Shown: positions 11,127 through 28,031 of the stretch, in pieces | Numbering within the stretch: position 1 is the stretch's first letter | How the letters are laid out: each line of letters starts with the position of its first letter | Origin: Bacteroidales bacterium | GTDB lineage: Bacteria; Bacteroidota; Bacteroidia; Bacteroidales; UBA932 | NCBI GenBank assembly: GCA_017960545.1 | Contig: JAGCYZ010000057.1 | Location: forward strand, 1 to 62,228 | Direction of reading: 5' to 3' | DNA: 62,228 nucleotides | Notes under the pieces: model-generated | What the model was told of the DNA's origin: nothing | Databases searched by the model: none | What the model saw: only the letters and a program-made list of their open reading frames with translations | Translations under genes and position numbers: made by a program

Positions 11127-12557
11127 ATGGGTAAAGGGAATTTGAAATGGATTACGGCCGGCGTTGCCTGTCTTTGGGCCGCCCTCCTTCTGGGGTGGCA
11201 CCTCTACGATCCATACCGTAATATGGCCTTGCAGGAACCCGGGGCTGACAACCGTCCCGAGGGTTCGGCGCGCAGTGCGGATGACGTCGTTATAGGCGAA
11301 TTCTTTATGAAATACGAAGCGGCCGAGCCTTCCGCCCTCCTTACAGGGGTATGGAGCGGTTTCCGCGGTGACGGAAGGGACAACATCACTCCCGCGGCTG
11401 ACATAGTCACAGATTCCGATTATCCCCTTATGTGGTCTTTCTCCACCGGAGAAGGCCACGCCGCGCCCGTCATCTATCACGGGCGGGTATATGTCCTTGA
11501 CTACGACGAAACCCTTATGTCCGATATGCTGCGCTGCTTCTCTCTTGAAAGCGGAGAGGAATTGTGGCGCAGGTGGTACAGGGTGAGGATGAAGCGCAAC
11601 CACGGCTTTTCCCGCACCATTCCCGCAGTGGGGGATGGCTATCTGGTGACCATAGGGCCCGAAGGCCACGTAATGTGCTGCGACCCCCTCACCGGAGAAA
11701 TGAAATGGACCCTGGATATGAAGCAGGAATTCTCCACCGAGGTTCCGTTCTGGTACACCGGACAGTGCCCTCTGGTAGAAGACGGAGTGCTTGTCCTGGC
11801 TCCCGCCGGAGAAGAAGTGCTGATGGCCGGGGTGGACGTCCGCAATGGTGAAATCCTGTGGACAACGCCCAACAGCGTGCATTTTACTATGAGCCATTCC
11901 TCCATAATGCCAATGGAATTGGGAGGGAAGAGGTTCTACGTGTATATAGGCGTGGGCGGTGTATGCGGTGTATCCGCCGAGAAACAGGACAGGGGAACGC
12001 TTCTGTGGAGCACTAATAAATGGCAGCCGTCCGTGGTGGCCCCTTCTCCGCTCAGGATATCGTCCGACAGGGTATTCCTCGTTGCCGGATACGGCACAGG
12101 AGGCGCGCTTCTGCAGGTTACCCGCAGCGGATCCGGCTGGAAGGCCGACATCCTTGAGCAGTATAAGGCGGACAAGGGAATGTCCGCCGAGCAGCAGACG
12201 CCCATCCTTTATGACGGAATGCTCATAACCATCCTGCCAAAAGATGCCGGCGGCTCGCGCGAGAGGCTCCTTTGCTACAGCCCTTCGGACCTGCACACTC
12301 CCATCTGGCGCAGCGAAACCGACGAAAAGTTCGGCCTTGGCCCATATATGATACTCCAGGACAAGCTCCTGGCTTTCAATGAGAACGGAGAGCTGTACGT
12401 ATATCAGCTGGAAAGGGGAGGAATGTCCCTGCTTCACAAACAGCAGGTGCTCGAAGATGCCGTTGACGCCTGGGGCCCCATGGCCTATGCGGACGGCAGG
12501 CTGGTTCTCCGGGACTCCCACAATGTCATTTGCCTGAAAATAGACGGAAATGGATAA
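11127..12557 (+). CDS. Membrane-anchored PQQ-like beta-propeller protein (first gene of redox-propeller operon)
   Basis: The protein has 476 residues. One hydrophobic helix at about 8-25 (ITAGVACLWAALLLGW) anchors a propeller predicted to lie in the periplasm. Blades show the PQQ-like repeat pattern, for example RCFSLESGEELWRRW, CCDPLTGEMKWTLD and GVDVRNGEILWTTP. Despite the domain name there is no sign of a PQQ-dependent dehydrogenase active site or a haem CXXCH, and relatives such as BamB are scaffolds. The next gene starts eight bases before its stop. A candidate operator lies just upstream. A scaffold or docking role for the Fe-S proteins of the operon is inferred. Confidence 0.82.
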   Translation: MGKGNLKWITAGVACLWAALLLGWHLYDPYRNMALQEPGADNRPEGSARSADDVVIGEFFMKYEAAEPSALLTGVWSGFRGDGRDNITPAADIVTDSDYPLMWSFSTGEGHAAPVIYHGRVYVLDYDETLMSDMLRCFSLESGEELWRRWYRVRMKRNHGFSRTIPAVGDGYLVTIGPEGHVMCCDPLTGEMKWTLDMKQEFSTEVPFWYTGQCPLVEDGVLVLAPAGEEVLMAGVDVRNGEILWTTPNSVHFTMSHSSIMPMELGGKRFYVYIGVGGVCGVSAEKQDRGTLLWSTNKWQPSVVAPSPLRISSDRVFLVAGYGTGGALLQVTRSGSGWKADILEQYKADKGMSAEQQTPILYDGMLITILPKDAGGSRERLLCYSPSDLHTPIWRSETDEKFGLGPYMILQDKLLAFNENGELYVYQLERGGMSLLHKQQVLEDAVDAWGPMAYADGRLVLRDSHNVICLKIDGNG

Positions 12558-13608
12558 TAAAGAGAATAAAAAGATTTCCAGGAAAGATTTCCTGCACCTT
12601 ACCGGATCGGTGGTGGCCGGAGGCGTCATTGCCGGTACGGCCGGAAGCCTTTTGTGGAAGATGATCAAACGTCCCGACGACGTTTTCTACGACCCGCAGG
12701 GGGAACCGTACTCCATAAGTGACGGAGACACTTCGGTGTCGCCTTACAGGCGCATTTCGTCATTCAGTACACCGGGCTCCATAGACGCTTTCGAGGCTGC
12801 CGGGGAATCCCTGATAACCGCGGTGGACGGAAAGGTGATGGTTTATTCGCCCGATGGAACGCTCCGAAGCAGTTTTGATGTGGAATCTCCCGTAAGGGAC
12901 CTGGCCGTGGATGGAGACAAACTGTACGTACTGGCTCCGGCCAAAATTGCGGTATTCACACTGGACGGAGCGCGCACCGGTGGCTGGGACGCCTGCAGCG
13001 ACGATGCAGACTACTGCTCCCTTACTGTAACGCCCCAGGGTGTGTTCGTGACGGATGCAGGAGCAAAGATTATGGTAAAATACCGTCTTGACGGCTCCCT
13101 TGACCGTTTCATAGACAGCCCGCGCGGCTTTGTGGTTCCCAGCTATTCCTTTGGCGTGACCCATTACGGAGATGTGGTTTATTGCTCCAATCCGGGCCGC
13201 CATCTGGTAGAGAGCTATTCGGCCCAGGACGGAAAGTTCCTGGCCGCATTCGGGACGGCGGGCACGCAGCCGGGCCGCTTCAGCGGCTGCTGCAACCCCG
13301 TCCGGATTATCGTATCGCCTTCCGGCGAGCTTATCACCTCAGAGAAAGGAATCCCCCGCATCTGCTGCTACAGCCGCGAGGGCCAGTTCCGCAGCGTCCT
13401 CCTTAACAGCAAGGCCCTTGGCGGCGGAAGCGCCGCTTACGAGGTGCGCATAGCCCGCGACGGCCGCTTCTTCGTAGCCGGAAAGAATTCCGTATCCGTC
13501 TTCCGCTACGACGACCGCCTCGCCAGCGCGGGAGCAGGCGAATCTGTAAGCTCCGCCTGCGCCATCTGTGCAATAGAATGTCCGCTCAAGCGCGGCGTAA
13601 ACGTTTAG
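12550..13608 (+). CDS. NHL-type propeller with Tat-like leader and C-terminal three-Cys motif
   Basis: The protein has 352 residues. The leader SRKDFLHLTGSVVAGG resembles a Tat signal with RK in place of RR. The body has NHL/SMP-30-like blades (AVDGDKLYVLAPAKIAVFTLDG, VTPQGVFVTDAGAKIMVKY, FGTAGTQPGRFSG). The chain ends with CAICAIECP, Cys 337, 340 and 344, a CXXCXXXCP pattern like half of a bacterial [4Fe-4S] ferredoxin motif. Further cysteines occur at GCCNP and RICCYS. The gene overlaps its upstream neighbour by eight bases and precedes the polyferredoxin gene by 12. It may carry or receive an Fe-S cluster through the tail, or dock to the next protein; both are inferred. Confidence 0.75.
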   Translation: MDNKENKKISRKDFLHLTGSVVAGGVIAGTAGSLLWKMIKRPDDVFYDPQGEPYSISDGDTSVSPYRRISSFSTPGSIDAFEAAGESLITAVDGKVMVYSPDGTLRSSFDVESPVRDLAVDGDKLYVLAPAKIAVFTLDGARTGGWDACSDDADYCSLTVTPQGVFVTDAGAKIMVKYRLDGSLDRFIDSPRGFVVPSYSFGVTHYGDVVYCSNPGRHLVESYSAQDGKFLAAFGTAGTQPGRFSGCCNPVRIIVSPSGELITSEKGIPRICCYSREGQFRSVLLNSKALGGGSAAYEVRIARDGRFFVAGKNSVSVFRYDDRLASAGAGESVSSACAICAIECPLKRGVNV

Positions 13609-13620
13609 CATCCGCAGACA

Positions 13621-14205
13621 ATGAAAAAGGATAAAGAACAGATAGACAACAGCCCGATGCCCCGCCGGGAATTCTTCCGCAAGATTTCTAAAGCCATTGC
13701 GGGGGCGGGCGTCCTGGCTCTTGGCGGCGCCGCCGCGACCAAAGTCAAGGGGAACAAGTCCGCCAGCCTCTACTGGCAGATAGACCCCGAAAAATGCACC
13801 CAGTGCGGCCGTTGCGAAACCAGCTGCGTAATGCCGGTTTCCGCCGTCCGCTGCATCCACGCCAACAAAGTATGCGGATACTGCGACCTCTGCGGCGGGT
13901 ACTACCGCACCAACGCCAAGGAGCTCAACACCGCCGCCGAGAATATGATATGCCCCACCGGAGCCATCCAGCGCAAGTTCGTGGAAGACCCTTACTTTGA
14001 ATATACAATTGACGAAGACCTCTGCAACGGCTGCGGCAAATGTGTCAAGGGCTGCAGCTCGTTCGGCAACGGATCACTCTTCCTGCAGATAAGGCAGGAC
14101 CTCTGCCTCAACTGCAACGAGTGCTCCATCGCAAACGTTTGCGCCTCCGGGGCAATCACCCGCGTCCCTTACGAAACAGCATACAAAATGAAGGACCAAG
14201 CCTGA
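13621..14205 (+). CDS. Tat-exported polyferredoxin (NapG/HybA-like)
   Basis: The protein has 194 residues. The leader has PRREFFRKI with twin Arg 15-16 and a hydrophobic stretch to about residue 38, so export in folded form by Tat is expected. Four [4Fe-4S] cluster sets can be traced: Cys 59/62/65/69; a set from Cys 78/85/88/91 and 111; Cys 135/138/141/145; and Cys 162/165/168/174. This layout is like NapG, HybA and DMSO-reductase electron-transfer subunits. It probably transfers electrons on the periplasmic face, paired with the NapH-like protein whose ATG overlaps its stop. No molybdenum enzyme is encoded nearby, so the final partner is unknown. Confidence 0.85.
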   Translation: MKKDKEQIDNSPMPRREFFRKISKAIAGAGVLALGGAAATKVKGNKSASLYWQIDPEKCTQCGRCETSCVMPVSAVRCIHANKVCGYCDLCGGYYRTNAKELNTAAENMICPTGAIQRKFVEDPYFEYTIDEDLCNGCGKCVKGCSSFGNGSLFLQIRQDLCLNCNECSIANVCASGAITRVPYETAYKMKDQA

Positions 14206-15473
14206 TGAAAAAGTTCCTCAACTCCCTGGTACTGCTCCTGGCAGGCTGGAAGGCGGCTGCCATCAGTCGTTTCCCCAGGCCTGATTTCGAATCGGGCTAC
14301 CAGTACCCGGAATACACCTATGCCGTCCCCAACGAGATGCTGTGGGACATCATAGACGTAGCTATGCTGCTCATCCTTATGGGTATTGTCACCTGGGCTT
14401 TGTATAAGAAGCGCACCCGCGGCCCCATACTGTGGAGCTCGGTGGTTTCAGTGGCTTACTTCGGCTTTTTCAGGGGTGGTTGCGTGTGCAGCGTGGGCTC
14501 CATCCAGAACGTGGCCCTGGCCTTCGTGGATAATTCCTACAGCCTGCCGCTGGCGGTTTTCCTCTTCTTTATGATTCCCATTTTGGGGGCGTTCCTTTTT
14601 GGAAGGGTATTCTGCTCGGGAGTGTGTCCCCTTGGCGCCCTCCAGGACCTGGTGAACGTTAAAAACTACCGGATCAACAAGGCGGTGGCGGGCGCCCTGA
14701 GCGTAATCCCCTGGATTTACCTGGCTTTTGCGTTGCTGTACGCCTTGACCCGTACCCGTTTCATAATCTGCCAGTTTGACCCGTTCATAGGCATCTTCCG
14801 CCTTGGCGGAGACATAGGTATGATTGCATTCGGCGTAATACTGCTGGTGATGTCCGTATTCACGGGAAGGCCGTTCTGCCGTTTCCTGTGCCCGTACGGT
14901 GCGTTGCTGAGCATTTTCTCTTCGGTTTCGGTTTTCAAGATAGGCATCACCCCCAAACCCTGCATCAACTGCGAGCTCTGCCACAATTCCTGCCCCGTCG
15001 ATGCCATCGAAGCCCCTTACGGCAACAAGGTTAACGAAAGCAACCGTACGGGCGTCAAAAGGCTGCTGGCATATATGCTTATAATCCCCGTCCTTATGGC
15101 CGCGGGAGGCCTGCTTATGCGCCAGGCGGCTCCGCAGCTCGCACGCGCCAACAGGGAAGTGCGGCTCTATTCTCAGGTAATGTACTTTGAAGACCATCCC
15201 GATGGAGAAATGATCCCGGAAGTAGAGGCATTCTACAGCCAGGGACGCACACTAGAAGACCTGATCAGTTCCTATGAAGAAGTTCACAAAGATTTCCGCC
15301 TGTACGGCACTCTCGCGGGTATGCTCATAGGCCTTGTGATAGGTGTTAAGCTCGTAAGGCTTTCCCTCAAGCGCGGCCGCAAACAGTATGAGATAGCCCA
15401 CTCGCGCTGCGTCGCCTGCGGAAAGTGCTTCAGTTATTGTCCCCAGAACCGCGTCAAGGCCAAAGTGAATTAA
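14205..15473 (+). CDS. Membrane-bound 4Fe-4S protein of the NapH/NosR/CcoG type
   Basis: I chose the ATG at 14205, inside the upstream TGA, which gives 422 residues. About six or seven membrane helices are seen. The motifs CSGVCPLGALQ (137-146) and CRFLCPYGALL (225-234) are the paired CxxxCP signatures of NapH and the NosR C-terminal domain. GGCVCS lies at 91-96. A ferredoxin set (Cys 253/256/259/263) follows, and a further set at the C-terminus (Cys 402/405/408/412, CVACGKCFSYCP). Relatives pass electrons between the quinone pool or cytosolic donors and periplasmic reductases. Here it would link the cytosolic NuoEF-like module to the exported polyferredoxin. That path is inferred. Confidence 0.85.
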   Translation: MKKFLNSLVLLLAGWKAAAISRFPRPDFESGYQYPEYTYAVPNEMLWDIIDVAMLLILMGIVTWALYKKRTRGPILWSSVVSVAYFGFFRGGCVCSVGSIQNVALAFVDNSYSLPLAVFLFFMIPILGAFLFGRVFCSGVCPLGALQDLVNVKNYRINKAVAGALSVIPWIYLAFALLYALTRTRFIICQFDPFIGIFRLGGDIGMIAFGVILLVMSVFTGRPFCRFLCPYGALLSIFSSVSVFKIGITPKPCINCELCHNSCPVDAIEAPYGNKVNESNRTGVKRLLAYMLIIPVLMAAGGLLMRQAAPQLARANREVRLYSQVMYFEDHPDGEMIPEVEAFYSQGRTLEDLISSYEEVHKDFRLYGTLAGMLIGLVIGVKLVRLSLKRGRKQYEIAHSRCVACGKCFSYCPQNRVKAKVN

Positions 15474-15480: not shown

Positions 15481-17307
15481 ATGAAAAAGAATATATACCG
15501 CAACATAGCCATAGTCACCGCAATTTTTGCGCTGACGCTGTCTATAATGCTCATAACCAACTATTTCCAGGTACGTAAGGCCACCCCTCTGCAAACCGAG
15601 GTGGTCCAGACCCTCAAGGAACTCAACGACGTCAACGCGGACAATCTGCAGCTCCAGGAGCAGATCCGTCAGCTTGACCTCCTGTCCCGAAGGGCCTACT
15701 TCGTGCAGAGAAGCCATCTTAAGACCGGGCTTTACCTGCTTCTGGGAATGCTGGGAGTTCTGCTGGTTTGCCTCCGTCTTTATTATTCCGGAGTCAAGGA
15801 CATCCCGGAAAAGGAGATCGACCACCTTGACGACTGGCTCATACAGTCCAAGGCACGCAAATATGTGCTGGGAGGCGCTGGCGCAGTGGCTGTAGCCGCG
15901 CTGGTATTCGCCTTCCTGTCGTCTCCATATTATTCTTCTTTGGGGGAGCGCCGTGCCCAGAAGAAGGCGCTGGCCCAGCAGGAGGAATTCGAAGCCCCTC
16001 AAGAGGAGATCTTTGATGCAGAGTCCTTCGATCCTGCTCAGTTGACAGCCGATGCTACCGCCCCTGAAACCGAGGCTCCGGAAGAAGAAACCGCTCCCCA
16101 GGAGGAATCCCAGACAGAGGAGGCCGCTTCCGAAGAGCCTGTAGTAGAACAACCTGTAATATCTACCGTTACCCATAACGCTTTCCGCGGCAACAATTCC
16201 AACGGCCAGTCCAATGCCAGGGGAGTCCCTGTGAACTGGGACCTTTCCGCCGGCTCCAATATCGCCTGGAAGGTTTCCGTGGCCAAGCCCGGTTTCAATT
16301 CGCCGGTGCTCAACGGGCGCAACGTGTTCCTTACCGGCGCCGACGCATCGGCAAGGGAACTCTATTGCTACGACCTCCTTACCGGAGAATTGCGCTGGAC
16401 CCTAGCCGCCGACGGCATTGCCGGATCTCCTTCCACAATGCCAACCGTTAATGGCGATACAGGCCTTGCGGCTTCGTCTGTGGCCACCAACGGAAGCCAG
16501 GTATGCGCAATTTTCGCCACCGGCGATATCATTTGCGCCGATATCGACGGCAACCGCCTTTGGGCCAAGAACCTCGGCGTGCCCGACAACCATTATGGCT
16601 TTGCTTCTTCGCTTCTCATTTACGGCGGCGAGGTCATAGTCCAGTACGATAACGACAGCGACGGCAAGCTCATAGCCCTCAACCTGAGCAACGGTAACGT
16701 CCGCTGGACAAAATCCAGGACCGAAAAGGCCACCTGGAGCTCTCCTATAATAGCCTACATAGACGGAAAGGCCCAGCTTGTGGTAATGGGCAATCCCGCC
16801 CTTACCGCCTACAATCCGGACAACGGCGAAATGCTGTGGAAAGTTGACTGTATGAGCGGAGAAGTGGGCGCGAGTCCCTGCAGCTCCAACGGAATAGTTT
16901 ACGGAGCCAGCGAATACGCCTCGCTTGTGGCGGTAAACGCCCAGGACGGCTCCCTGCTGTGGGAGGCAAACGACTATCTGCCGGAGGTCTCCAGCCCCGT
17001 GGCTACAAAAGATTACGTTTACGTGGCCACCAGCTACGGAATGCTCATAGCATACGACGCCTCCAACGGGGAAATCCTGGCGGAGCAGGACCTTGGAACA
17101 CAATTCTACTGTTCTCCAATGCTCGTGGAGGGCAAGATTTATATATTCGGGACGGAAGGGAATATGTACATTTTCAGCAATGACGGAAAGCTGACCCTTC
17201 TGCGCACCATCCAGACCGGGGAGCCCACCTTTGCCACCCCGGCGTTCACGGACGGCAAGATTGTGGTGCGTTCCACAGAAAGCCTGTATTGCGTAAGCGC
17301 TTCATAA
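15481..17307 (+). CDS. Three-helix membrane protein with acidic linker and PQQ-like propeller
   Basis: The protein has 608 residues. Helices are predicted near 9-26, 83-101 and 128-147. A stretch that may be coiled coil (35-70, LQTEVVQTLKELNDVNADN) lies between the first two. Residues about 165-230 form an acidic, Glu/Ala/Pro-rich linker. From about 235 on, PQQ-like blades occur (CYDLLTGELRWTL, ALNLSNGNVRWTKS, AYNPDNGEMLWKVD, AVNAQDGSLLWEAND). The propeller should be periplasmic. No catalytic or haem motif is seen. It starts eight bases after the NapH-like stop and ends four bases before the NuoEF-like gene. The fusion of a multi-helix anchor to a propeller suggests a structural link with the membrane Fe-S protein. 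Confidence 0.8.
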   Translation: MKKNIYRNIAIVTAIFALTLSIMLITNYFQVRKATPLQTEVVQTLKELNDVNADNLQLQEQIRQLDLLSRRAYFVQRSHLKTGLYLLLGMLGVLLVCLRLYYSGVKDIPEKEIDHLDDWLIQSKARKYVLGGAGAVAVAALVFAFLSSPYYSSLGERRAQKKALAQQEEFEAPQEEIFDAESFDPAQLTADATAPETEAPEEETAPQEESQTEEAASEEPVVEQPVISTVTHNAFRGNNSNGQSNARGVPVNWDLSAGSNIAWKVSVAKPGFNSPVLNGRNVFLTGADASARELYCYDLLTGELRWTLAADGIAGSPSTMPTVNGDTGLAASSVATNGSQVCAIFATGDIICADIDGNRLWAKNLGVPDNHYGFASSLLIYGGEVIVQYDNDSDGKLIALNLSNGNVRWTKSRTEKATWSSPIIAYIDGKAQLVVMGNPALTAYNPDNGEMLWKVDCMSGEVGASPCSSNGIVYGASEYASLVAVNAQDGSLLWEANDYLPEVSSPVATKDYVYVATSYGMLIAYDASNGEILAEQDLGTQFYCSPMLVEGKIYIFGTEGNMYIFSNDGKLTLLRTIQTGEPTFATPAFTDGKIVVRSTESLYCVSAS

Positions 17308-17310
17308 AAG

Positions 17311-19713
17311 ATGTGCGGAACTGATTGCATAGAAAAAGAGGCTGCGGCCCTCAAGGCGGTGCTTTTGCGCACGGATGCCATAATTGACCGCATCGGGACA
17401 ACCCCCGATGTAGTCATCCCTTTGCTCCAGGCACTGCAGGAAGAGTTCAACTACCTGCGCTCCGAGTCGCTGGACAGGGTTTACGAGCGCACGGAGATCA
17501 CCCGCGCCCAGGTGATGAGCGTAGCCACCTTCTATTCCCAGTTCAGGCTGGTGCCTTTCGGCAAGCACATAATAAAGGTCTGCAACGGAACCGCCTGCCA
17601 CGTGAAAGGGGCCGACACGGTGTATGACGCTTTCAGGCGCGAGCTCAAGATGGAGGGCGACGACATTACCACGGCGGACGGTCGCTTCTCGATAGAGAAG
17701 ATAGGCTGCCTGGGCTGCTGTGCCCTGGCTCCCGCGGTGCAGATAGGCCCCAAGATCTATGGGCACGTGCAGCCCGGCAAGGTGGATGAGGTGCTGGACG
17801 CCTTCAACGCCCTGGCCGCCCAGGAAGAGGAGAAAGAAGAGGAAGAGAGGGAAGGAAAGGTGCAGGGAGAGATAAGGCTGGGAATGGAAAACTGCTGCCA
17901 GGCCAGCGGCACCGCCGAGATTTACGAGGCCGTGACTGCCGCCTGCGCCGAACTGGACCTTAACGTAAGGATCAAGCCGGTGAGCTGCGTGGGCGCCTGC
18001 AATCAGGTTCCTATGGTAGATGTGGCAATGCCCGACGGGCAGATTATCCGGTACCCCAATGTCAAGCCCGAGGAGGTCAGGGAAATCCTTCTGAACCATT
18101 TCAAGGCGACATCCCCGCTGCGGCGGCTGCGCAACAGCATTTTCCGCCGCGTGGACCATATTCATACCGATACCGTTTGGGAGAGTTCCCTCTGGGAACC
18201 CGATGAGGTGCGCACGCGTACCATAAACAACTTCTTCGCGGGCCAGAAGCGCATCTCCACCGAAGGATACGGCCATATGGCTCCGCTGGATGCGGACGAA
18301 TACATAGCCAACGACGGCTTCAAGGCCTTGGAGAAGGTACTCAAGGAAATGACTCCGGGACAGGTCATAGACCAGGTGCTGGCCAGCGGTTTGCGAGGGC
18401 GCGGAGGCGGAGGTTTCCCTTCGGGCCGGAAATGGTCCCTGGTGGCCTCCCAGCCCACAGACGTGAAATACGTTGTCTGCAACGGAGACGAGGGAGACCC
18501 CGGAGCCTTCATGGACCGCATCCTGCTGGAATCATACCCTATGAGGGTCATTGAAGGAATGATAATAGCGGGATATGCCGTAGGAGCGCATCAGGGCGTG
18601 TTCTATATAAGGGCGGAGTATCCTCAGGCCGTGATCCGAACACGCAAGGCACTGCAGATGTGCCGTGACAGGGGCTATCTGGGGAAGGACATCCTGGGCA
18701 GCGGATTCGACTTTGACATACGCATTTTCGAAGGCGCGGGAGCCTTTGTCTGCGGCGAAGAAACGGCCCTTATAAACTCCATAGAAGGAAAGCGCGGATT
18801 CCCCAACCTGAGGCCGCCGTATCCGGCCGTATCGGGCCTTAACGGCTGCCCGACGCTTATCAATAACGTAGAGTCCCTGAGCCAGGTTCCCTATATAATC
18901 CGCAACGGGGCTGAGGCCTACGCATCGGTGGGAACGCAGAGCAGCAAGGGAACCAAGGTGTTCGCATTGGTGGGAAAGGTCAACCACGGAGGGCTCATAG
19001 AGGTTCCTATGGGCACCACTCTCAACCAGATAATTGAGGATATAGGCGGCGGAGTGGAAGGAGGCGAAAAACTCAAGGCGGTCCAGACCGGAGGCCCGTC
19101 CGGAGGCTGCATCCCCGCGGAGATGTGCGACACCGCCGTAGATTACGAAGCACTCAAGGGTATGGGAGCCATAATGGGCTCCGGAGGCCTTGTAGTGCTG
19201 TCCGAGAGCAGCTGTATGGTTGACGTTGCCCGCTATTTCACGGAGTTTACGGCAGGGGAGTCCTGCGGCAAATGCACATTCTGCCGCATAGGCCTCCGGT
19301 GCATGCTTGACATCCTTGACAAGATATGCACGGGCAAGGGAAAGGAAGAAGACATAGCACAGCTGGAGGAACTGGCTCAGAACATAAGCAAGGCCGCCCT
19401 CTGCGGCCTGGGAAAGACTGCGCCCAACCCGGTTCTCTCCACGCTGCGCTACTTTATGGACGAATACAAAGAGCACATTGCGGGAATCTGCCGTACGGGT
19501 ACCTGCAAGGATATGGTTAAATACGAGGTGAACGAAGACTGCGTTGGCTGCACCAAGTGCGCCAAGGCCTGCCCTGCCGACGCCATAGAATATACCCCGT
19601 ACGAGAAGCACTTCATCCAGGTTGACAAATGCACACAGTGCGGCCTTTGTATAGGAGAGTGCAGTTACGATGCCATCCACAAGGTGCCTTTGAAAGAAGT
19701 TGCAATAAGTTGA
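17311..19713 (+). CDS. Fused NuoE-NuoF-type NAD(P)H flavin/iron-sulfur subunit (HydC-HydB-like)
   Basis: The protein has 800 residues and is cytosolic. Residues 10-170 are a NuoE/HydC domain with [2Fe-2S] ligands Cys 91, 96, 133 and 137. After an acidic linker (171-186), residues 187-265 form a second thioredoxin-like [2Fe-2S] domain (Cys 195/196, 226, 230). Residues 330-720 are NuoF: FMN/NADH loop GLRGRGGGGFPSGRKW (360-375), CNGDEGDPGAF (390-400), GAGAFVCGEETAL, and N3 cluster Cys 652/655/658/698. Two ferredoxin clusters end the chain (Cys 744/747/750/754 and 774/777/780/784). The order equals HydC fused to HydB of electron-bifurcating hydrogenases. It should oxidise or reduce NAD(P)H; its partner here is not a hydrogenase. 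Confidence 0.93.
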   Translation: MCGTDCIEKEAAALKAVLLRTDAIIDRIGTTPDVVIPLLQALQEEFNYLRSESLDRVYERTEITRAQVMSVATFYSQFRLVPFGKHIIKVCNGTACHVKGADTVYDAFRRELKMEGDDITTADGRFSIEKIGCLGCCALAPAVQIGPKIYGHVQPGKVDEVLDAFNALAAQEEEKEEEEREGKVQGEIRLGMENCCQASGTAEIYEAVTAACAELDLNVRIKPVSCVGACNQVPMVDVAMPDGQIIRYPNVKPEEVREILLNHFKATSPLRRLRNSIFRRVDHIHTDTVWESSLWEPDEVRTRTINNFFAGQKRISTEGYGHMAPLDADEYIANDGFKALEKVLKEMTPGQVIDQVLASGLRGRGGGGFPSGRKWSLVASQPTDVKYVVCNGDEGDPGAFMDRILLESYPMRVIEGMIIAGYAVGAHQGVFYIRAEYPQAVIRTRKALQMCRDRGYLGKDILGSGFDFDIRIFEGAGAFVCGEETALINSIEGKRGFPNLRPPYPAVSGLNGCPTLINNVESLSQVPYIIRNGAEAYASVGTQSSKGTKVFALVGKVNHGGLIEVPMGTTLNQIIEDIGGGVEGGEKLKAVQTGGPSGGCIPAEMCDTAVDYEALKGMGAIMGSGGLVVLSESSCMVDVARYFTEFTAGESCGKCTFCRIGLRCMLDILDKICTGKGKEEDIAQLEELAQNISKAALCGLGKTAPNPVLSTLRYFMDEYKEHIAGICRTGTCKDMVKYEVNEDCVGCTKCAKACPADAIEYTPYEKHFIQVDKCTQCGLCIGECSYDAIHKVPLKEVAIS

Positions 19714-20686: not shown

Positions 20687-21816
20687 TAAAAAGGCTTCTG
20701 AAATACCTGGCCATTGCCCTGGCCTTAGCCGGCTGCTCCAAAGGAGGCGGCACCGGGAATATGGACTGGAACGTATTCAGGGGCGATTCTTCCCTGAGCG
20801 GATACACAGACCAGGCGCTCCCTTCCAAACCGCGCCTTCTCTGGAGCTTCACCACCGGCCCCCGCACGGAGGGGTCCCCGGTAATCAAAGACGGCGTCAC
20901 CTACTGGTGCGACCGCCGCGGAAAGATGTACGGAGTGGATCCTGACGGCAACCAGGTATTCCAAAAGGAATTCGACACTTACATAGAGGCCACGCCCCTT
21001 ATCAATGACGGCGTGCTTTACATAGGGACTACCGACGGCAGTCTCCTGGCCATAAGCATCCCGGACGGAAACGTGCTGTGGGAGTATGAGACCGAAGGGC
21101 AGATATCCGCCTCTCCCAACCTTGCGAGCTTCGCAGGCAGGGATGCCATAGTGGTTGGCAGCTACGACAACTGGATGTATTGCATAGATGCGGCCGACGG
21201 CACGCTTCTCAGCCGGTACGAGTCTGGATACTACCTTAACGGCGCCGCGGCGTGCTGGCGGCAGAACGTACTGTTTGGAGGATGCGACCAATGGCTCAGG
21301 ATGATAGACTGCGCCACCGGCGGCGCCGTGGATTCGCTCAGGCTGGACGCTTACATCCCTTCTTCTCCCGCCATTTCGGGCGATATGGCGTACGTTGGGG
21401 ACTATTCCGGCAATCTGTACGCCATCAATCTTGAAGACGGGAAAATGGGCAAATGGAGCAAATTGCGCGAGGCTACAGAGGACAGCTCAGACCTTGTCAG
21501 CGTCCCCGCAGTGGATTCCAAGGCCGTTTACGCTTTCTCTTCCGACAGGCTGCTTACCGCCTACAGCCGCAAGGACGGAAGCCTCAAATGGTCAGTGCTC
21601 CTTAAAGGCAATCCGGGAGAAAGCTCCCCGCTGGTATGCAGGGATAAGGTCCTGGCCTGCACCAAGACCGGAATTATTAGCATATTCGACAAGTCGGACG
21701 GAACCCTCCTGTGGGAATATGATGCGGGAGAAGACATCATTGCCAGTCCGGCGGTCATCAAGGACAGATTTATGATACTTACGGCCAAAGGCACCCTTTT
21801 GTGCTTTGGCAAATGA
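20683..21816 (+). CDS. PQQ-like beta-propeller lipoprotein
   Basis: I chose the ATG at 20683, which overlaps the upstream TGA, because it gives a lipoprotein leader IALALAGC with Cys near residue 17. An in-frame ATG 30 bases upstream would bury that leader. The 377-residue product has PQQ-like blades (GVDPDGNQVFQKE, AISIPDGNVLWEYE, CIDAADGTLLSRYE, AYSRKDGSLKWSV, IFDKSDGTLLWEYD) and an FRGDSSLSG motif near the start, like the other propellers of the operon. It should be attached to the outer leaflet of the inner membrane or to the outer membrane. BamB is a well-known relative, but nothing links this protein to the BAM complex here. Confidence 0.82.
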   Translation: MIKRLLKYLAIALALAGCSKGGGTGNMDWNVFRGDSSLSGYTDQALPSKPRLLWSFTTGPRTEGSPVIKDGVTYWCDRRGKMYGVDPDGNQVFQKEFDTYIEATPLINDGVLYIGTTDGSLLAISIPDGNVLWEYETEGQISASPNLASFAGRDAIVVGSYDNWMYCIDAADGTLLSRYESGYYLNGAAACWRQNVLFGGCDQWLRMIDCATGGAVDSLRLDAYIPSSPAISGDMAYVGDYSGNLYAINLEDGKMGKWSKLREATEDSSDLVSVPAVDSKAVYAFSSDRLLTAYSRKDGSLKWSVLLKGNPGESSPLVCRDKVLACTKTGIISIFDKSDGTLLWEYDAGEDIIASPAVIKDRFMILTAKGTLLCFGK

Positions 21817-22493
21817 AAACAGATATGGCGCTTATCGAACTGAAAGGAATTCAAAAGAGCTTTCCGGACGGGTCCGGACGCAGCAACACCATTCTGCGCG
21901 ACGTCACCTTCAGCGTAGAAAGAGGGGAGTCCGTAGCCGTGACGGGGCCATCCGGCAGCGGCAAGACAACCCTGCTGCGTATGTTGGGAACCCTTCTGGA
22001 GCCGGACAAGGGCACTTATACCCTTGACGGAGACAATCCTTTTGCAAACCCGTACCAAGTACGCAACCGCAAAATAGGATTCGTATTCCAGGACCACAGG
22101 CTGCTGCCCCAATATACTGTCCTGCAGAACATCCTGATGCCTTGCCTGGCTACAGCCCAAAGTGCTACTGAGCAGCAGGTTTCCTATGCCCGCGCACTGA
22201 TGTCAAGGACGGGCATTGACGGGCTCGAAGGGCAGTATCCGCAGACCCTTTCCGGAGGCGAGGCGGGCAGGGCGGCGCTTTGCCGCGCCCTTGTTATGGA
22301 GCCGTTGCTGGTCCTTGCCGACGAGCCCACCGGCCAGCTGGACGCTGACAACGCCGATGCCATCCTCTCTTTGCTTACAGAGTTGGTGAAAGAGCGTTCG
22401 ACCACACTTATAATGGTAACACATTCGGAGCAGACGGCTGCAGCCGCCGCCCGCAGGCTTTGTATAGAAAACCGTACGGTAATTGAAAAGTAG
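21813..22493 (+). CDS. ABC transporter ATP-binding protein (LolD/MacB-like)
   Basis: The product has about 226 residues from the ATG at 21813, which overlaps the preceding TGA; the ATG at 21825 is an alternative. Walker A GPSGSGKTT, signature LSGGE and Walker B LLVLADEP are all present, along with the conserved VTHS switch histidine. It groups with ATPases that drive FtsX-type permeases (LolD, MacB, FtsE). The permease gene that follows overlaps its 3' end by 11 bases. It would power extraction of a lipoprotein, or mechanical work in the envelope, rather than solute import. Membership in the redox-propeller operon is supported by the chain of overlaps. Confidence 0.9.
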   Translation: MKTDMALIELKGIQKSFPDGSGRSNTILRDVTFSVERGESVAVTGPSGSGKTTLLRMLGTLLEPDKGTYTLDGDNPFANPYQVRNRKIGFVFQDHRLLPQYTVLQNILMPCLATAQSATEQQVSYARALMSRTGIDGLEGQYPQTLSGGEAGRAALCRALVMEPLLVLADEPTGQLDADNADAILSLLTELVKERSTTLIMVTHSEQTAAAAARRLCIENRTVIEK

Positions 22494-25400
22494 AGAACTA
22501 TCCGCTGGAAGCATACGCTATTACAAGCGTTTCTGGATCCTTATAGCCATTGCTTGTGCAGTGGCTGCGGGAGTCATTTCCGGCAGCCTCATCGTGGGCG
22601 ATTCCGTGCGCCATTCCCTCGAAAAGCGCACCCTGGACCGCCTGGGCGACGCCCGTACCGTAATTGTGTCCCAAAACGGATATCTGGATGCCGCGTTCGC
22701 AGCGGCCGTGCCTTCTGGGCGGGGAATGCTGTATTCCGACGGTTTCGTATCGGCAGACGGAAGGCTGATTCCCGTCAACGTATGGGGCATAGATTCCGTT
22801 GAGCCCGGAACGGTCAAGATCAACGCGCCGCTCAGCAAGGAAATAGGGGCGCGGCAGGGGAGCGCCGTAGTGCTGCGCCTCCCTCGCAACGGCCTGGTTC
22901 CGTCGGGCTCCCTTTTTGTCACTGAAGAATACACCCTTGGCCTGAGACTCTCCTGCACCGATGTCCTTTCTGCCTCCCAGGGCGGAAACCTCAGCCTCAG
23001 GGTAGCCCAGGTGCTTCCGTACAATGTCTTTGTGAGCCGGAGCGAACTCTGCGAGAACCTGGAAACCGGCGATAAGATCAGTATGGTCTTCTCCCCGGAA
23101 GAATTGGGCAGGAGCGTGCTGGATGACGTATTCAAGCCTCAGTATGCCGGCCTTTCCGTCCGCACCGCCGCCGACGGGCGCAGCGAAGTGGTTTCAGACG
23201 CCGTTTTCCTGCAGGAAGACATCATTGAAGCCGTGTCCGGGCGCGACGCCAAACCCGACAGGCTATTCTCTTATCTTGCCAATACCATATCAGCCGGGGA
23301 CGCATTTGTGCCGTATTCCTTTGTCACGGCAATGGATTATTACAAAGGGGAAAGCATCCCGGCAGACCAGATTTACCTTACCGACTATACCGCCGCCCGT
23401 CTTGGCGCCCGCATAGGAGACCAGATCAACGTCTCATACTACATCTCTCCAGGAATGAAGCAGTTGGAGACCGACTCCGTGACGCTTCGCGTAGGCAGGA
23501 TAATCCCCATAGGAGAAGTACTTTCCGATCCGGGGCTCAGCGCCTCGTATCCTGGCCTCACCGAGGCGCAGCGATGCTCCGACTGGGACAGCGACCTTCC
23601 CCTTGACATGTCGCTCATAGGCCCCCAAGACGAACTGTACTGGGAGCGGTACCGCTCAGCCCCCAAGGCCATATTGCCTTATGCTGCCGTGGCTTCTTCC
23701 TGGAAGAATCCATACGGCGCGGCAACGGCACTCCGTCTTGACGGGGAAGCGGACCTTGACGCCCTTGATGCCTCCCAATGCGGAGTAGCAATGATCCATC
23801 CTCTGGATTCCGGCCTTGCCGCGGCCAGGGGAGGAGTGGATTTCGGCGGGCTGTTCCTGGCACTGGGCTGCTTCATAATAGCAGCCGCCCTGCTGCTCAT
23901 CCTCAATCCTTTGAAGGAGATGCTGCAAAAGCGCAAGGGGGAAAGGGAAGTGATTGAATCTATAGGCTTCCAGCCTAAGTCCATAAGAAAGATGATTAAC
24001 CGCGAAGCGGTTCCCGTGCTGGGGATTGCATCGCTGGCGGGAGTAGTGGCGGGCCTGCTTTATGCCTTTGTGGTCCTGTTCCTTTTGGGAAACCTGTGGA
24101 AAGGGGCTACGCATACAGACGGCTTTGCGGTTTATCCGCGCCCGCTTACCCTTGTGACGGGCCTGGCGGCCGGCTTGCTGCTGGCTTTGGGCACCGTCGC
24201 GCTCACGCTGCGCCGCTCCATGCGCAGCGGCAAGAAAGCCGCCAGGCAGGCAAACCCCGCCGCCATAAAGGTATGGGCGATAATTTGTACGGCGCTGATG
24301 ATTCTGCTGCCGTTCCTTTCCAAGCCCCTGGGCGCCGTGGTGAGTTTCGTCCTCACCGGATGCCTCTGGGTAGCGGCCGGAACGCTGTGGTTCTGCTGGT
24401 ATATCCTTAAGAAGCCCGCAAACGACGTTTCCCGTTCGGGGCTTGTACGCGAGAGCCTGTATTATTCCCGTTCCGGTGCCATACTGTCTTTCATTACCCT
24501 GGCGCTCGGAGTGTTCATAGTATTTGCCGTAGGTCTCAACCGCCAGGATTTCACTGACGGAAGCAAACGTACAGCCCTTACCGGAGGATATGGATGGTGG
24601 TGCGAGACTTCGGTTCCGGTCTATTACGACCTCTCCACCCCTCAGGGACGGAGCCATCTTTCACTGGGAACCCTTTCGCCCCAGGCGGAAATACTCCAGT
24701 TCCTGCGCGCTCAGGGCGATGACGCCAGCTGCCTTAATCTCAATAAGGTCGAAACTCCCGCGGTGCTTGCGGCCGATATGGAAGTCTTCCTCAAGGACTT
24801 TCCTGCAGGAGACATAACAGCCCAATATATGCGTAGCGCCCCCGTAGCCCTGGTAGATGAAACCGTGCTGCTGTGGGGTATGGCAAAGCAGGTAGGGGAT
24901 ACCCTGCACTACACGGACTCCCGCGGCAACCCTGCGGACATTGTAATTTGCGGAACCCTGCCCAATACCGTGTTCCAGGGCAACATTGTAATGGACAGGA
25001 CTGTATTCGAGCAATTCTGGCCCCAGACCACGGGCAGCGAAGTATTCCTCTTTAAGAGCCCTCAGCAGAACGATGCCGGCATAGCGGCGGCCGCCCTCAA
25101 CGAATACGGAATACGCGTCACTCCAACCCTCGAAAGGCTCAAGGAGTTCAATTCCGTGACCGATGCGTACCTGACAATCTTCCTGATGCTGGGCTTTGCC
25201 GGCCTTCTCCTGGGTCTGGTAAGTTTCTTTGTAATAATGAGAAAGAACCTTGCCGCCAGAAAGGAAGACATAGACCAGTGGGCCTGCCTGGGAATACCCC
25301 GCGAGACGGTCCACGAACTGCTTTACAAGGAATACGGCCCCGTTCCGCTCCTGGCTGCGGGCCTTGGCGTGAGCGGCGCGCTGCTCAGCGTTATAATATC

Positions 25401-25506
25401 GTTCGGAAATATCCCCGTGCTCATCTGGCTCCTATGCATCGTTTTTGCAGCGTGCCTGCTGTACGGGATATACGTTTCAGTCAAGAAAGTGATAGGCAAA
25501 GTATGA
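22483..25506 (+). CDS. FtsX-like ABC permease, about ten helices
   Basis: The frame has no ATG before the first membrane helix, so the start is taken as TTG at 22483, inside the upstream gene; this gives 1007 residues. An N-terminal helix (about 13-35) is followed by a large periplasmic domain (to about 445) and helices near 449-471, 513-537 and 555-575. A central helix pair and a second extracytoplasmic domain follow (about 690-880), with three C-terminal helices. This duplicated FtsX layout is typical of ADOP-type or lipoprotein-release permeases. With the ATPase it may move lipoproteins, perhaps the propeller lipoprotein upstream. Its stop overlaps the ATG of the glycosyltransferase. Confidence 0.83.
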   Translation: MKSRELSAGSIRYYKRFWILIAIACAVAAGVISGSLIVGDSVRHSLEKRTLDRLGDARTVIVSQNGYLDAAFAAAVPSGRGMLYSDGFVSADGRLIPVNVWGIDSVEPGTVKINAPLSKEIGARQGSAVVLRLPRNGLVPSGSLFVTEEYTLGLRLSCTDVLSASQGGNLSLRVAQVLPYNVFVSRSELCENLETGDKISMVFSPEELGRSVLDDVFKPQYAGLSVRTAADGRSEVVSDAVFLQEDIIEAVSGRDAKPDRLFSYLANTISAGDAFVPYSFVTAMDYYKGESIPADQIYLTDYTAARLGARIGDQINVSYYISPGMKQLETDSVTLRVGRIIPIGEVLSDPGLSASYPGLTEAQRCSDWDSDLPLDMSLIGPQDELYWERYRSAPKAILPYAAVASSWKNPYGAATALRLDGEADLDALDASQCGVAMIHPLDSGLAAARGGVDFGGLFLALGCFIIAAALLLILNPLKEMLQKRKGEREVIESIGFQPKSIRKMINREAVPVLGIASLAGVVAGLLYAFVVLFLLGNLWKGATHTDGFAVYPRPLTLVTGLAAGLLLALGTVALTLRRSMRSGKKAARQANPAAIKVWAIICTALMILLPFLSKPLGAVVSFVLTGCLWVAAGTLWFCWYILKKPANDVSRSGLVRESLYYSRSGAILSFITLALGVFIVFAVGLNRQDFTDGSKRTALTGGYGWWCETSVPVYYDLSTPQGRSHLSLGTLSPQAEILQFLRAQGDDASCLNLNKVETPAVLAADMEVFLKDFPAGDITAQYMRSAPVALVDETVLLWGMAKQVGDTLHYTDSRGNPADIVICGTLPNTVFQGNIVMDRTVFEQFWPQTTGSEVFLFKSPQQNDAGIAAAALNEYGIRVTPTLERLKEFNSVTDAYLTIFLMLGFAGLLLGLVSFFVIMRKNLAARKEDIDQWACLGIPRETVHELLYKEYGPVPLLAAGLGVSGALLSVIISFGNIPVLIWLLCIVFAACLLYGIYVSVKKVIGKV

Positions 25507-26759
25507 AAATACTGTTCATTTCCCCGAGTGCGGGAGACACATACTACTGCGGCAACTGCTTCAGGGACAATCTATTGGCGCAGGCGCTCCTCAAGCAAGG
25601 GCACGATGTGATCATTATGCCCCTGTACCTGCCTATGAAGATAAGCACCCAGGGCGTGCCCGTATTCTTTCCCGCCACGTCATATTATCTGGAGCAGGCC
25701 CTGTTCAAGAAAGGTCAGATGCCATCCTGGATGCGCAAGGCCATAGGGTCTCCCAAGATGCTGGGCCTGGCCGCATCCCTTTCCGGAACCACTTCCGCGG
25801 CCGGAATGGAGGGAATGACAATGTCAATGATAGAGGGCCTTGACGGAGCCTTCCTCAAGAATATGGAAGATATGGTGGCCTGGATGCGTTCCGACGGCCT
25901 TCCCGACGTTGTCCATCTGTCTTCATCTCTGCTCATAGGCATAGCGAGGTTCATAAAAGAGGAGCTGGGCATTCCTGTGGTATGTTCCCTTCAGGACGAG
26001 GAAGTCTGGATAGATTCCCTTAAAGAAGATTACGTTTCCAAGGCGTGGGAGGCCGTAAGCCGCAACGCCGCATACGTGGACCGCTTCATCACCTCAAGCA
26101 ACTATTACAGGCAGATAGCCTTGGAAAGGATGCCTTCGCTAAAGGATCCCGAGGTGATTTATCCCGGTGTGGACATAGAGCGTTACCGTAACCTTTCGCA
26201 GCCGTCAGACCCTACGATAGGATTCTTCTACAGGATGAACGCCCTTGACGGCCTCGACCTGGTTGCCCAGGCCTTCGTAGACCTCAAGCGCCGCGGCACA
26301 GTTCCCGGGCTGAAGTTGAGGATAGGAGGCGGGGCGATGGGCTCTTCCGACAAGAAATTCTTGGAAAAAGTTAAGGAAATACTTGCTCCGTATCAAGAAG
26401 ATGTTACCTTTGTACCCTACAGCGTAGATTCCCACGCGGATTTCTACCCTCAGATAAGTGTACTTTCCGTGCCGCTTCGCTTCAACGAAGGAGTAGGACT
26501 CTATCTTTGCGAAGCATTCGCCTCCGGGCGTCCTGCCGTAGAGCCGCGCAGCGGTTCTTTCCCAGAAATTACCGACGGCGCAGGGCTGCTTTACGATCCG
26601 GAGTCGCCTCAAGCCTTGACCGATACTTTGGAAAAAGTCCTCACGGACAGGGACCTTTACGGCCGTCTGTCCGCCCGGGCCCTTGAATTGTCCGGCAGCA
26701 GGTATGACGGTGCCGTTATGGCCCGCAGATTGTTAGAAGTATATGAATCAGTTATATAG
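25503..26759 (+). CDS. Family 4 glycosyltransferase
   Basis: I chose the ATG at 25503, overlapping the permease stop, which gives 418 residues. The N-terminal Rossmann half begins MKILFISPSAGDTYYCGNCF, and the acceptor-side GNCFRDN motif resembles GT4 retaining enzymes. The C-terminal half has GFFYRMNALDGLDLVAQAF and the E-x7-E donor-binding motif in FNEGVGLYLCEAF with SGRPAVEPRSGSFPEI. It would transfer a sugar from a nucleotide sugar to a lipid, glycan or protein on the cytosolic side. Substrate is unknown. Its presence in the redox-propeller operon suggests that an envelope component of the system is glycosylated, or that the operon joins two tasks. Confidence 0.88.
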   Translation: MKILFISPSAGDTYYCGNCFRDNLLAQALLKQGHDVIIMPLYLPMKISTQGVPVFFPATSYYLEQALFKKGQMPSWMRKAIGSPKMLGLAASLSGTTSAAGMEGMTMSMIEGLDGAFLKNMEDMVAWMRSDGLPDVVHLSSSLLIGIARFIKEELGIPVVCSLQDEEVWIDSLKEDYVSKAWEAVSRNAAYVDRFITSSNYYRQIALERMPSLKDPEVIYPGVDIERYRNLSQPSDPTIGFFYRMNALDGLDLVAQAFVDLKRRGTVPGLKLRIGGGAMGSSDKKFLEKVKEILAPYQEDVTFVPYSVDSHADFYPQISVLSVPLRFNEGVGLYLCEAFASGRPAVEPRSGSFPEITDGAGLLYDPESPQALTDTLEKVLTDRDLYGRLSARALELSGSRYDGAVMARRLLEVYESVI

Positions 26760-26768
26760 TTATCAATT

Positions 26769-28031
26769 ATGTTGAGTATGAAGAAAATTTTATTTTCACT
26801 GTGTGCAATGGTCGCCTGCGTCTGCTCCTTTGCCCAGAGCAGCGCTCCCGACGGCTTCCGCGGCCCCAAACACGACGGAATGTACCTGTCGGAAACCGGC
26901 CTTATGAAAACCTGGCCTGCAGACGGCCCCGCAAAACTGTGGGAGAACCTCCAGGTAGGTGACGGCAACTCCAGCCCGGTAATAGACGGTGACAGGCTTT
27001 ACATAACCGGCCTGTCCGAAGACAAGAGACAGGAAGTGCTCCTGGCCCTGGACAAAACCGGAAAAGTCCTGTACAGCGTAGCTTACGGATCTCCCTGGAG
27101 GAACTCTTACCCCGAGACACGTACCACCCCCACAATCTACAACGGCAAGGCATACGTCATAAGCGGCAGCGGAGAAGTAGTCTGCGTGAATACCGCAGAT
27201 GGCAAGATAGTATGGAAAGTGGACGGCAACTCCGCTTTCAGGACCACCACGGGTAACTGGGGTACCGCAGAGAGCCCCCTCATTGTAGATAACAAGGTCA
27301 TCTACTCTCCCGGCGGAAACCAAACCACCCTTGTGGCCCTTGACGCAGATACCGGCAAGGAGGTATGGAAGTCCCGCTCCCTTGGCGAGAAGCGCGCCTA
27401 TGCCACCCCTATCCTAATCGAATGGAAAGGAAAGAAGCAGATAGTGGCCTTCACCATGCACAGCATCTTTGGAGCGGACCCTTCCAACGGCAATATAGAA
27501 TGGACATTCTCCAACTGGGGAAAAAGCGGCGAGGACAATATCCCGCCCAACAGCCCCCTTTTCAAGGACGGCCGCATTTTCTTCAGCCAGGGATATGACA
27601 TAGGATCCTTTATGCTCCAGCTCAACGACAATCTTACAGGAGTGACCGTAGCGTGGAAGAATGCCGATATGGACACCCATCACGGAGGATACGTCCTTGT
27701 GGACGGCGTCATTTACGGAACCAACTGGGTGAACAACAACAGCGGAAACTGGCTCGCACTGGACTGGAACACCGGAAAGACCCTTTACAACTCCGCCTGG
27801 TCCGGCGGAAAGGGCAAAGGCTCCATAATCTATGCGGACGGAATGCTCTATTGCTACGATGAGCGTCGCGGATACATAGGAATGGTAAAGCCGGACGGTA
27901 AAGAATTCAAGACCGTCAGCGAGTTCCGTATGGACAAGGGTTCCGGCCCCTACTGGGCCCACCTGGTAATTGCCGACGGAGTCCTTTACGCCCGTCACGG
28001 CTCCGCCCTCATCGCTTATAAAGTAAAGTAG
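26769..28031 (+). CDS. Secreted PQQ-like beta-propeller protein (last gene of the operon)
   Basis: The protein has 420 residues from 26769; the ATG at 26778 gives a cleaner signal peptide (ending CSFAQ) and is about as likely. Blades include CVNTADGKIVWKVDG, ALDADTGKEVWKSR, GADPSNGNIEWTFS and ALDWNTGKTLYNS. The start of the mature protein has GFRGPKHDGMYLSETGL, the same FRG-type motif as the other propellers (FRGDGRD, FRGNNSNG, FRGDSSLSG). It resembles the outer-membrane PQQ-repeat group that is often annotated as a dehydrogenase but lacks a proven cofactor. It lies nine bases after the glycosyltransferase stop, and a hairpin terminator begins 24 bases after its own stop. Confidence 0.82.
   Translation: MLSMKKILFSLCAMVACVCSFAQSSAPDGFRGPKHDGMYLSETGLMKTWPADGPAKLWENLQVGDGNSSPVIDGDRLYITGLSEDKRQEVLLALDKTGKVLYSVAYGSPWRNSYPETRTTPTIYNGKAYVISGSGEVVCVNTADGKIVWKVDGNSAFRTTTGNWGTAESPLIVDNKVIYSPGGNQTTLVALDADTGKEVWKSRSLGEKRAYATPILIEWKGKKQIVAFTMHSIFGADPSNGNIEWTFSNWGKSGEDNIPPNSPLFKDGRIFFSQGYDIGSFMLQLNDNLTGVTVAWKNADMDTHHGGYVLVDGVIYGTNWVNNNSGNWLALDWNTGKTLYNSAWSGGKGKGSIIYADGMLYCYDERRGYIGMVKPDGKEFKTVSEFRMDKGSGPYWAHLVIADGVLYARHGSALIAYKVK

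Follow-up and report, generated by a model that had tools for sequence, protein, structure and literature searches.

A twelve-gene Bacteroidales operon joining a flavin-bifurcation-type iron-sulfur core to a NapH-like membrane protein, a Tat-exported ferredoxin and envelope propellers

The locus at positions 11127-28031 of a Bacteroidales contig raises the question of why a cytosolic NuoEF-like protein should be encoded in one operon with membrane iron-sulfur (Fe-S) proteins and a set of envelope beta-propellers. The window is the whole contig (G000:C108; 62,228 nucleotides), from a 2.0 Mb genome assembly that is 78% complete and consists of 112 contigs, and the locus comprises twelve intact open reading frames (ORFs), here named A to L, all on the + strand and tightly packed (Table 1). 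A preliminary description of this DNA suggested that electrons from NAD(P)H cross the membrane to an acceptor in the envelope, and we retain the transfer of NADH electrons across the membrane as the leading model. Specifically, we propose, at about an even chance of being right, that the operon encodes an inner-membrane electron-transfer complex in which electrons would run from NADH, probably together with ferredoxin, to F, G, D and C and on to the envelope propellers. The parts are of known kinds, a core of the bifurcating Bfu class and a NapGH-like module, joined in a way for which we found no description in the open PMC literature, as judged from titles and abstracts among the matches listed, supplements excluded.

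That the genes form a set is apparent from their conservation. The D alignment, compared with GTDB contigs by tblastn at 1e-3, returned 550 stretches encoding some D relative, of which the best 80 were kept; four of these 80 named loci are the same contigs as stretches fetched earlier, and a few rows of the D alignment represent one genome twice. The next family gene was the expected one at AB in 66/66 cases, BC 73/73, CD 78/81, DE 74/74, EF 62/62, FG 49/49, GH 46/46, HK 36/38, KI 22/22, IJ 17/18 and L-A 55/56. The three misses after C are loci bearing a second short C-like ORF, in the two after H no K stands between H and I, and one I and one L precede a different gene (L077, L117). The best 80 loci include Draconibacterium orientale, D. 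sediminis, three Maribellus, Gaoshiqia, Sunxiuqinia elliptica and Perlabentimonas gracilis, and no family of flanking genes is common to more than 6 of the 80. A search with B at 1e-3 matched 13 of 120 relatives, counting the window's own genome, and the match in G058 (59 residues, E 7.8e-4) looks like noise. Around the B matches, the order A to H is kept, as far as the stretch reaches, in nine of eleven stretches, most of which have L genes upstream of A and K-I-J downstream of H; an extra ORF lies between A and B in L022, and in L024 a lone B is followed by unrelated ORFs. The window, L018 and L019 have the order I-J-K instead of K-I-J, and many relatives carry one to four copies of L upstream of A. 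Whether the order is kept across Bacteroidales was the test set by the preliminary description, and it is kept across many families of the order.

The gene set is widespread but patchy within the order. In an even sample that includes the window's own genome, 42 of 247 genomes carry D; they represent 34 of 173 genera and bear 30 family labels. Among 395 genomes sampled across the phylum, which include the window's own and five others of the order, D was found in the window's own genome only and in 0 of the 389 outside the order. For seven of the 80 loci the title points elsewhere: to Chlorobiota (L065, L115), Chitinophaga pinensis (L089), Cyclobacteriaceae (L104, L123), Cytophagales (L105) and Phaeodactylibacter (L130). 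Labels of metagenome-assembled genomes (MAGs) are fallible, as with L063, a contig of G108 that bears the title Bacteroides fragilis; some spread beyond Bacteroidales is conceivable. A wider spread of B in the phylum was rejected: its matches in 98/395 genomes at 1e-3 were treated as generic NHL propellers, and, the own genome aside, only G374 gave one below E 1e-13 (2.6e-17), with none of the other operon genes in the 35 kb around it. A-like and B-like propellers may also occur in Planctomycetes and Verrucomicrobia. Among plasmids there were no relatives of A or B; relatives of D appeared in 157 records, all below 60% identity and each aligned over less than 80% of the query, and five of them, among the matches listed, are three NosR, an unannotated Prevotella NapH-like protein and YccM.

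The strongest clue to function lies in F, which carries 2Fe-2S_thioredx (162 bits), Complex1_51K (146), NADH_4Fe-4S (112) and Fer4 (29) domains, all above the Pfam cut-off. In the published classification BfuB is defined by IPR011538, IPR019554, IPR019575 and IPR017896 and BfuC by IPR002023, and the BfuBC core holds clusters B1-B5 and C1 with a conserved B2 His; 17 clades are listed without a function (PMC9304861). With Pfam matches taken as InterPro equivalents, F has the domains of both BfuB and BfuC. Its ligands were assigned from alignment and motif spacing, B5 least surely, and the positions given to C1 and B1-B5, including the B2 set of His722 and Cys635, 727 and 732, are invariant in 61/61 rows save four: C658 (58/61), C780 and C784 (60/61 each, with one gap each) and the variable site 673 (C in 23 rows, T in 28 and others in 10); C476 of Bfu is likewise described as variable in part (PMC9304861). 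HydB-like paralogues have the same ligand set, mostly minus one Cys of the assigned B5, and L171, the sole NuoF-type protein in the ligand table, is without B2-B5. F, at first taken for a NuoE-NuoF fusion, does contain those domains and, more than that, the full BfuC-BfuB ligand set of the HydB-type, flavin-bifurcating class. Its best PDB match is NfnB (9n5u, E 4.3e-202), and further matches are to chains that we take for Stn, HydB and NiFe-HydB proteins, in part by their names. Operon F forms one clade with 100/100 support in a 33-row tree, for which 21 operon F proteins were sampled at even steps and 12 paralogues added; a plain HydB was rejected as its identity, the clade standing apart from the 11 HydB-like paralogues. 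A PF10589 search matched in 10/10 genomes, and eight isolates carry three to six matches each, so that they hold other genes of the NuoF/HydB type besides F.

G tells a story of reduction. In most relatives it is an Fe-S protein of 480-541 amino acids with a GltD-type flavin adenine dinucleotide (FAD) motif, present in its exact form in 49/54 rows; the rows without it are the window and four long forms. Short G proteins of 322-366 amino acids, in which the motif is gone and the Fe-S cysteines are kept, occur in the window, L018, L019, L196, L198, L200 and L201; the exact motif is likewise absent from the 536-residue G of L197, and in the long G of L027 Pfam matched Pyr_redox_2 only at positions 2-108 of 291. 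Pfam found no FAD domain in the G of the window. Eighteen Cys are invariant in all 54 rows (53 long forms and the window), and C165 is kept in 53/54, the window having Ser. The Fer2_4 and 4Fe-4S matches of G correspond to the domains that define BfuA (IPR001041, IPR017896). G thus has the domains of the NuoG-N-like protein first described, and what that label missed is that it is a reduced form of the longer GltD/Nfn-like subunit. G descends from such a subunit, with loss of the FAD domain in several lineages; it would no longer serve NADP(H) and would carry electrons to or from D. An NADPH-dependent enzyme of the Nfn-Bfu/Stn type was set aside because the FAD/NADP(H) part of G is reduced or lost.

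The membrane partner D has C93, C95, C137, C141, C189, C225 and C229 in 89/89 rows, two CX3CP motifs (C137/C141 and C225/C229), two 4Fe-4S sites and an N-terminal RFPxPxF motif. The CX3CP motifs align with those of NapH, NosR and YccM, and the protein is multi-helix by hydropathy; the earlier NapH/NosR-like call is right as to the membrane Fe-S module, and D is no ordinary NapH, having three extra invariant cysteines. Equivalents of C93/C95/C189 were seen in 0/6 relatives (E. coli NapH, three NosR, YccM and a Prevotella NapH-like protein), in alignments that are weak outside the motifs, and D scores 64.2 of 213 bits against NapH TIGR02163 and 64 of 1000 against NosR NF046105, both far below cut-off. 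On our reading of hydropathy and charge, the CX3CP cysteines would lie on the cytosolic side and the C93/C95/C189 triad on the periplasmic side. In NapH and NosR, changes in the first CX3CP motif are reported to harm electron transfer (PMC5928378), and in flavinylated systems NapH-like proteins serve reductases and oxidases alike (PMC8238504).

On the export side, C has 16 Cys invariant in 86/86 rows, making four [4Fe-4S] sites, and an RRxF twin-arginine motif in 83/86. At 1e-3, TatC is found in 40/42 D-positive and 166/205 D-negative genomes (Fisher p = 0.022, counted from tables), a weak but fitting link; the two D-positive genomes without it are a 990-contig assembly (G543) and one that is 78% complete (G626). 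Pfam places PQQ_2 propellers in A, E, H and L. For B, Pfam gives no match at 0.01, and the B family profile matches PDB NHL propellers (best E 4.3e-21), so that the count of five propellers made at the outset is right. C247/C248 of B, within GCCNP, are kept in 80/80 rows. In 4/80 rows (window, L017, L018, L019), and also in L199 and L201, B carries both a Tat-like signal (RKxF) and a CxxCxxxC at its C terminus, which are absent from five other B proteins inspected; the joint occurrence is what the gain of a cofactor by B in that branch would lead one to expect. In A, H111 is kept in 70/72 rows and H159, C184, C214 and H257 in 72/72, and M183-C184 is conserved; these His and Cys residues make up a putative site. 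The weak PDB matches of A are BamB, tetrathionate hydrolase and quinoprotein ethanol dehydrogenase. PQQ dehydrogenases were rejected on the PQQ_enz_alc_DH scores of A (18.5 bits) and E (46.4), far below the cut-off of 480. A PqqC search gave nothing in 33 of the 42 D-positive genomes, and because its control was equally blank it carries no weight.

How might these proteins work together? We envisage that cytosolic F would oxidize NADH at flavin mononucleotide (FMN) and, because the BfuBC-type core is complete, would probably also take electrons from ferredoxin, in electron confurcation. Electrons would then move through G along its Fe-S chain, enter D at the 4Fe-4S sites on the cytosolic side and cross D by way of the CX3CP tetrad on the cytosol side and the C93/C95/C189 triad on the periplasm side, these cysteine groups being either metal sites or redox-active thiols. 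From D they would reach the exported ferredoxin C and the propellers, of which E would be nearest and A, B, H and L beyond; one propeller may hold or present the acceptor, and the ABC/FtsX pair I-J and the glycosyltransferase K may be assembly or export factors. The suggestion in the preliminary description that a propeller may be moved or glycosylated by these downstream genes found no support here, no analysis having been aimed at it. A bolder proposal, which we offer tentatively and rate as doubtful, is that this is a new type of confurcating enzyme in which NADH and ferredoxin drive low-potential electrons through a NapH-derived wire with an extra triad into the periplasm, where the propellers, with the His/Cys site of A, would be a new metallo-enzyme or acceptor complex, and terpenoid-lipid chemistry would be served in some hosts.

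Several observations weigh against an outward electron-transfer complex of this kind. No terminal oxidoreductase is recognized in the operon. In F, SLBB stays below threshold (25.1 bits against a Pfam cut-off of 27), and the B5 set is uncertain because HydB-like paralogues hold three of its four Cys. For the CX3CP motifs, the authors of the RdhC study favor disulfides over a cluster because NosR held <=8 Fe, and the donor of NapH is thought to be quinol (PMC5928378); D itself may have a quinone site. Nor is the set always whole: L027 has B to K-I with neither A nor L ahead of B, and L141 and L142 are without K. D-E is two genes away from F in G713 (L202), with A, B and C on another contig (L214), G087 has its lone B (L024) and its D on separate contigs, and in G638, a 97% complete genome, L-L-A-B (L211) occurs with no D found, which argues against an obligate link.

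The split sets in G668, G713 and G087 would be expected if unrelated neighboring units had come together by chance. In G668, C-D-E-F stands alone (L203), with L-A-B and G on another contig (L213); D-E was never seen broken, with C and F mostly alongside, and the few split sets hint at separable units. Chance is nevertheless a very improbable explanation, which synteny leads us to reject, because adjacency is near-invariant in 80 loci, the D-positive genomes of the order sample bear 30 family labels and the genes overlap. A more serious competitor takes its cue from the NapH/NosR membrane module of D with its two CX3CP motifs: F-G-D would be an alternative NADH(/ferredoxin):menaquinone oxidoreductase, or D would join the quinone pool to C, with the propellers as scaffolds or sensors. 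The membrane part of NapH has been proposed to oxidize quinol (PMC5928378), and a menaquinone-reducing Nuo-Bfu has also been proposed (PMC9304861). Yet the extra Cys triad of D, presumed periplasmic, and the dedicated Tat ferredoxin fit transmembrane transfer, and Pfam finds no NuoB/D/H-like quinone module in the operon; we consider the menaquinone route unlikely. Flow in the opposite direction, with propeller A or L oxidizing an envelope substrate and electrons running from C through D and G to F, there to be bifurcated to NAD+ and ferredoxin, would suit the PQQ-type family matches of A, E, H and L and the conserved His and Cys residues of A, and Bfu enzymes are described as able to run in either direction (PMC9304861). 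It would require a strongly reducing donor, the enzyme for such a substrate is not known, and the PQQ dehydrogenase scores of A and E speak against it, so inward flow seems quite improbable.

The last competitor places the operon outside energy metabolism, in envelope maturation or a lipid pathway, where its electrons would be spent on a reduction during the synthesis or export of a terpenoid or glycolipid. It draws on a class II terpene-cyclase-like gene (squalene-hopene-cyclase-like, one subfamily) that is found at 1e-15 in 10 of 247 genomes of the order, 8 of the 42 with D and 2 of the 205 without (Fisher p = 1.3e-5), and that adjoins the operon in several loci, lying directly upstream of A or L genes in L018, L019, L120, L201, L216 and L071 (cut by the locus end). 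Both D-negative genomes with the cyclase (G636 and G638) carry A, and in G636 the order cyclase-L-L-A runs to the contig end. The query was built from cyclases adjoining the operon, one row of it from G094, and related genomes are not independent points; the p value is 6.2e-5 minus G094 and 2.9e-4 minus G094 and its congener G609. At this threshold the gene is absent from 34 of the 42 D-positive genomes, the window's own included, so the cyclase is an optional client at most, and the lipid pathway strikes us as quite improbable.

The operon can be compared with several known systems. F resembles the Bfu enzymes (HydBC, StnABC, NfnABC) in having the domains of both BfuB and BfuC and their metal ligands, the B2 His/Cys set among them, and G holds NuoG-type 2Fe-2S and 4Fe-4S sites as BfuA does; unlike in those enzymes, BfuC and BfuB are fused, the BfuA-like G is minus its FAD domain in several lineages, and the genes alongside encode a NapH-like membrane protein, a Tat ferredoxin and propellers. 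The main text of the Bfu paper (PMC9304861) contains none of the words 'NapH', 'propeller' and 'PQQ'. D, with two CX3CP motifs and two 4Fe-4S sites, and C, a Tat polyferredoxin like NapG, recall NapGH, NosR and RdhC, whereas D is without an FMN-binding domain and has C93/C95/C189 and RFPxPxF in addition, and a cytosolic NADH module takes the place of quinol in the operon or is added to it. Flavinylated extracytosolic systems, too, move electrons across the membrane through a NapH-like protein (PMC8238504), although no operon protein has FMN_bind among its Pfam hits, unlike in flavinylated NosR/RdhC systems. As Rnf does, the operon would link NADH/ferredoxin to the membrane; Pfam recognizes in it no Rnf subunit, hydrogenase or catalytic reductase, as first stated, and RnfC is encoded elsewhere in the window's own genome (G000:C43) and in 26 of 33 operon-bearing genomes tested. 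The nos clusters (NosR/NosZ/NosDFY) group a polyferredoxin, Tat-exported proteins, a propeller and an ABC transporter, as here, whereas this operon has no NosZ, NosD or NosL match and its permease is of FtsX type. If our model is true, this would be the first bifurcation-type core, as far as we have found, that is wired to extracytoplasmic chemistry; it would explain a large redox operon carried by about one in six genomes sampled from the order, and it would hint at what some Bfu-type enzymes listed without function do (PMC9304861). It is directly testable because cultured Draconibacterium, Maribellus, Sunxiuqinia and Perlabentimonas carry the operon.

Table 1. Genes of the operon, with positions in the window and the basis of each assignment
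Gene	Product	Position	Strand	Basis
A	Membrane-anchored PQQ-like beta-propeller, 476 amino acids	11127..12557	+	Pfam PQQ_2 3.2e-21; 72-row alignment
B	NHL-like propeller with invariant GCCNP	12550..13608	+	Family profile against PDB NHL; alignment
C	Tat-signal (RREFF) polyferredoxin, NapG-like, four [4Fe-4S] Cys sets	13621..14205	+	Pfam Fer4; alignment
D	NapH/NosR-like membrane Fe-S protein	14205..15473	+	Pfam Fer4_5 1.4e-17
E	Membrane protein (three hydrophobic segments) with C-terminal PQQ-like propeller	15481..17307	+	Pfam PQQ_2 3.1e-35; hydropathy
F	BfuC-BfuB-type fusion: NuoE + N-terminal 2Fe-2S + FMN/NADH + B1/B2 + C-terminal 2x[4Fe-4S]	17311..19713	+	Pfam, PDB match, ligand alignment, tree
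G	Putative BfuA/NuoG-N-like Fe-S electron-wire subunit, FAD domain lost	19718..20686	+	Pfam Fer2_4 + Fer4_20
H	BamB-like propeller lipoprotein	20683..21816	+	Pfam; lipobox LAGC read by eye
I	ABC ATPase	21813..22493	+	Pfam ABC_tran 5.5e-32
J	FtsX-type ABC permease, about 1000 amino acids, start codon uncertain	22483..25506	+	Pfam FtsX 1.8e-11; hydropathy
K	GT4 glycosyltransferase with invariant YCxNC motif	25503..26759	+	Pfam; alignment
L	Secreted PQQ-like propeller	26769..28031	+	Pfam PQQ_2 1.7e-25

Domains were called with Pfam and NCBIfam, H and L with Pfam alone. The ORFs agree with the initial picture of twelve co-directional genes with overlapping stops and starts: 6 of 11 junctions overlap, and the gaps range from -11 to +12 bp (A/B -8, B/C +12, C/D -1, D/E +7, E/F +3, F/G +4, G/H -4, H/I -4, I/J -11, J/K -4, K/L +9). 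For D, H, I and K we judged starts at 14205, 20683, 21813 and 25503 preferable to the first start of the ORF because of ATGA/TGATG overlaps and homologues. Pfam likewise confirmed the polyferredoxin, ABC ATPase, FtsX permease and GT4 assignments. C16 and C19 in the N-terminal YCxNC motif of K are kept in 39/39 rows, and we know of no motif of this type in other glycosyltransferases.

A small secreted Gly/Pro-rich protein, weakly DUF4890-like (E 0.003), is encoded at 10549-10980, 146 bp upstream of A. The upstream flank (7796-10472) holds an aldo/keto reductase and an Asp-Al_Ex permease, and an aldo/keto reductase-like ORF likewise lies upstream of A in L017; downstream, on the other strand, are a carboxylesterase and a GH2 beta-galactosidase (28050-33227). 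A recurrent terpenoid cluster was seen at L212:6327-12681, L218:2306-7885, L219:10611-16849 and L221:273-6534, with a small Fe-S protein (not seen in L218), a radical SAM protein, a polyprenyl synthetase (fused to DUF116 in L219), a toroid protein and the squalene-hopene-cyclase-like enzyme, which has a DxDD motif; Pfam was applied to L219, and the Fe-S and radical SAM genes elsewhere were matched by eye. In G108, genes for HdrA-like, FlpD, 4Fe-4S, Fer4_22, FAD/NAD-binding and acyl-CoA dehydrogenase proteins (L027:1-6852) adjoin, upstream, the B-C-D-E-F-G-H-K-I operon that has no A or L there. In Draconibacterium orientale, a 151-residue ORF with a Thioredoxin_3 domain lies between F and G (L193:16469-16924).

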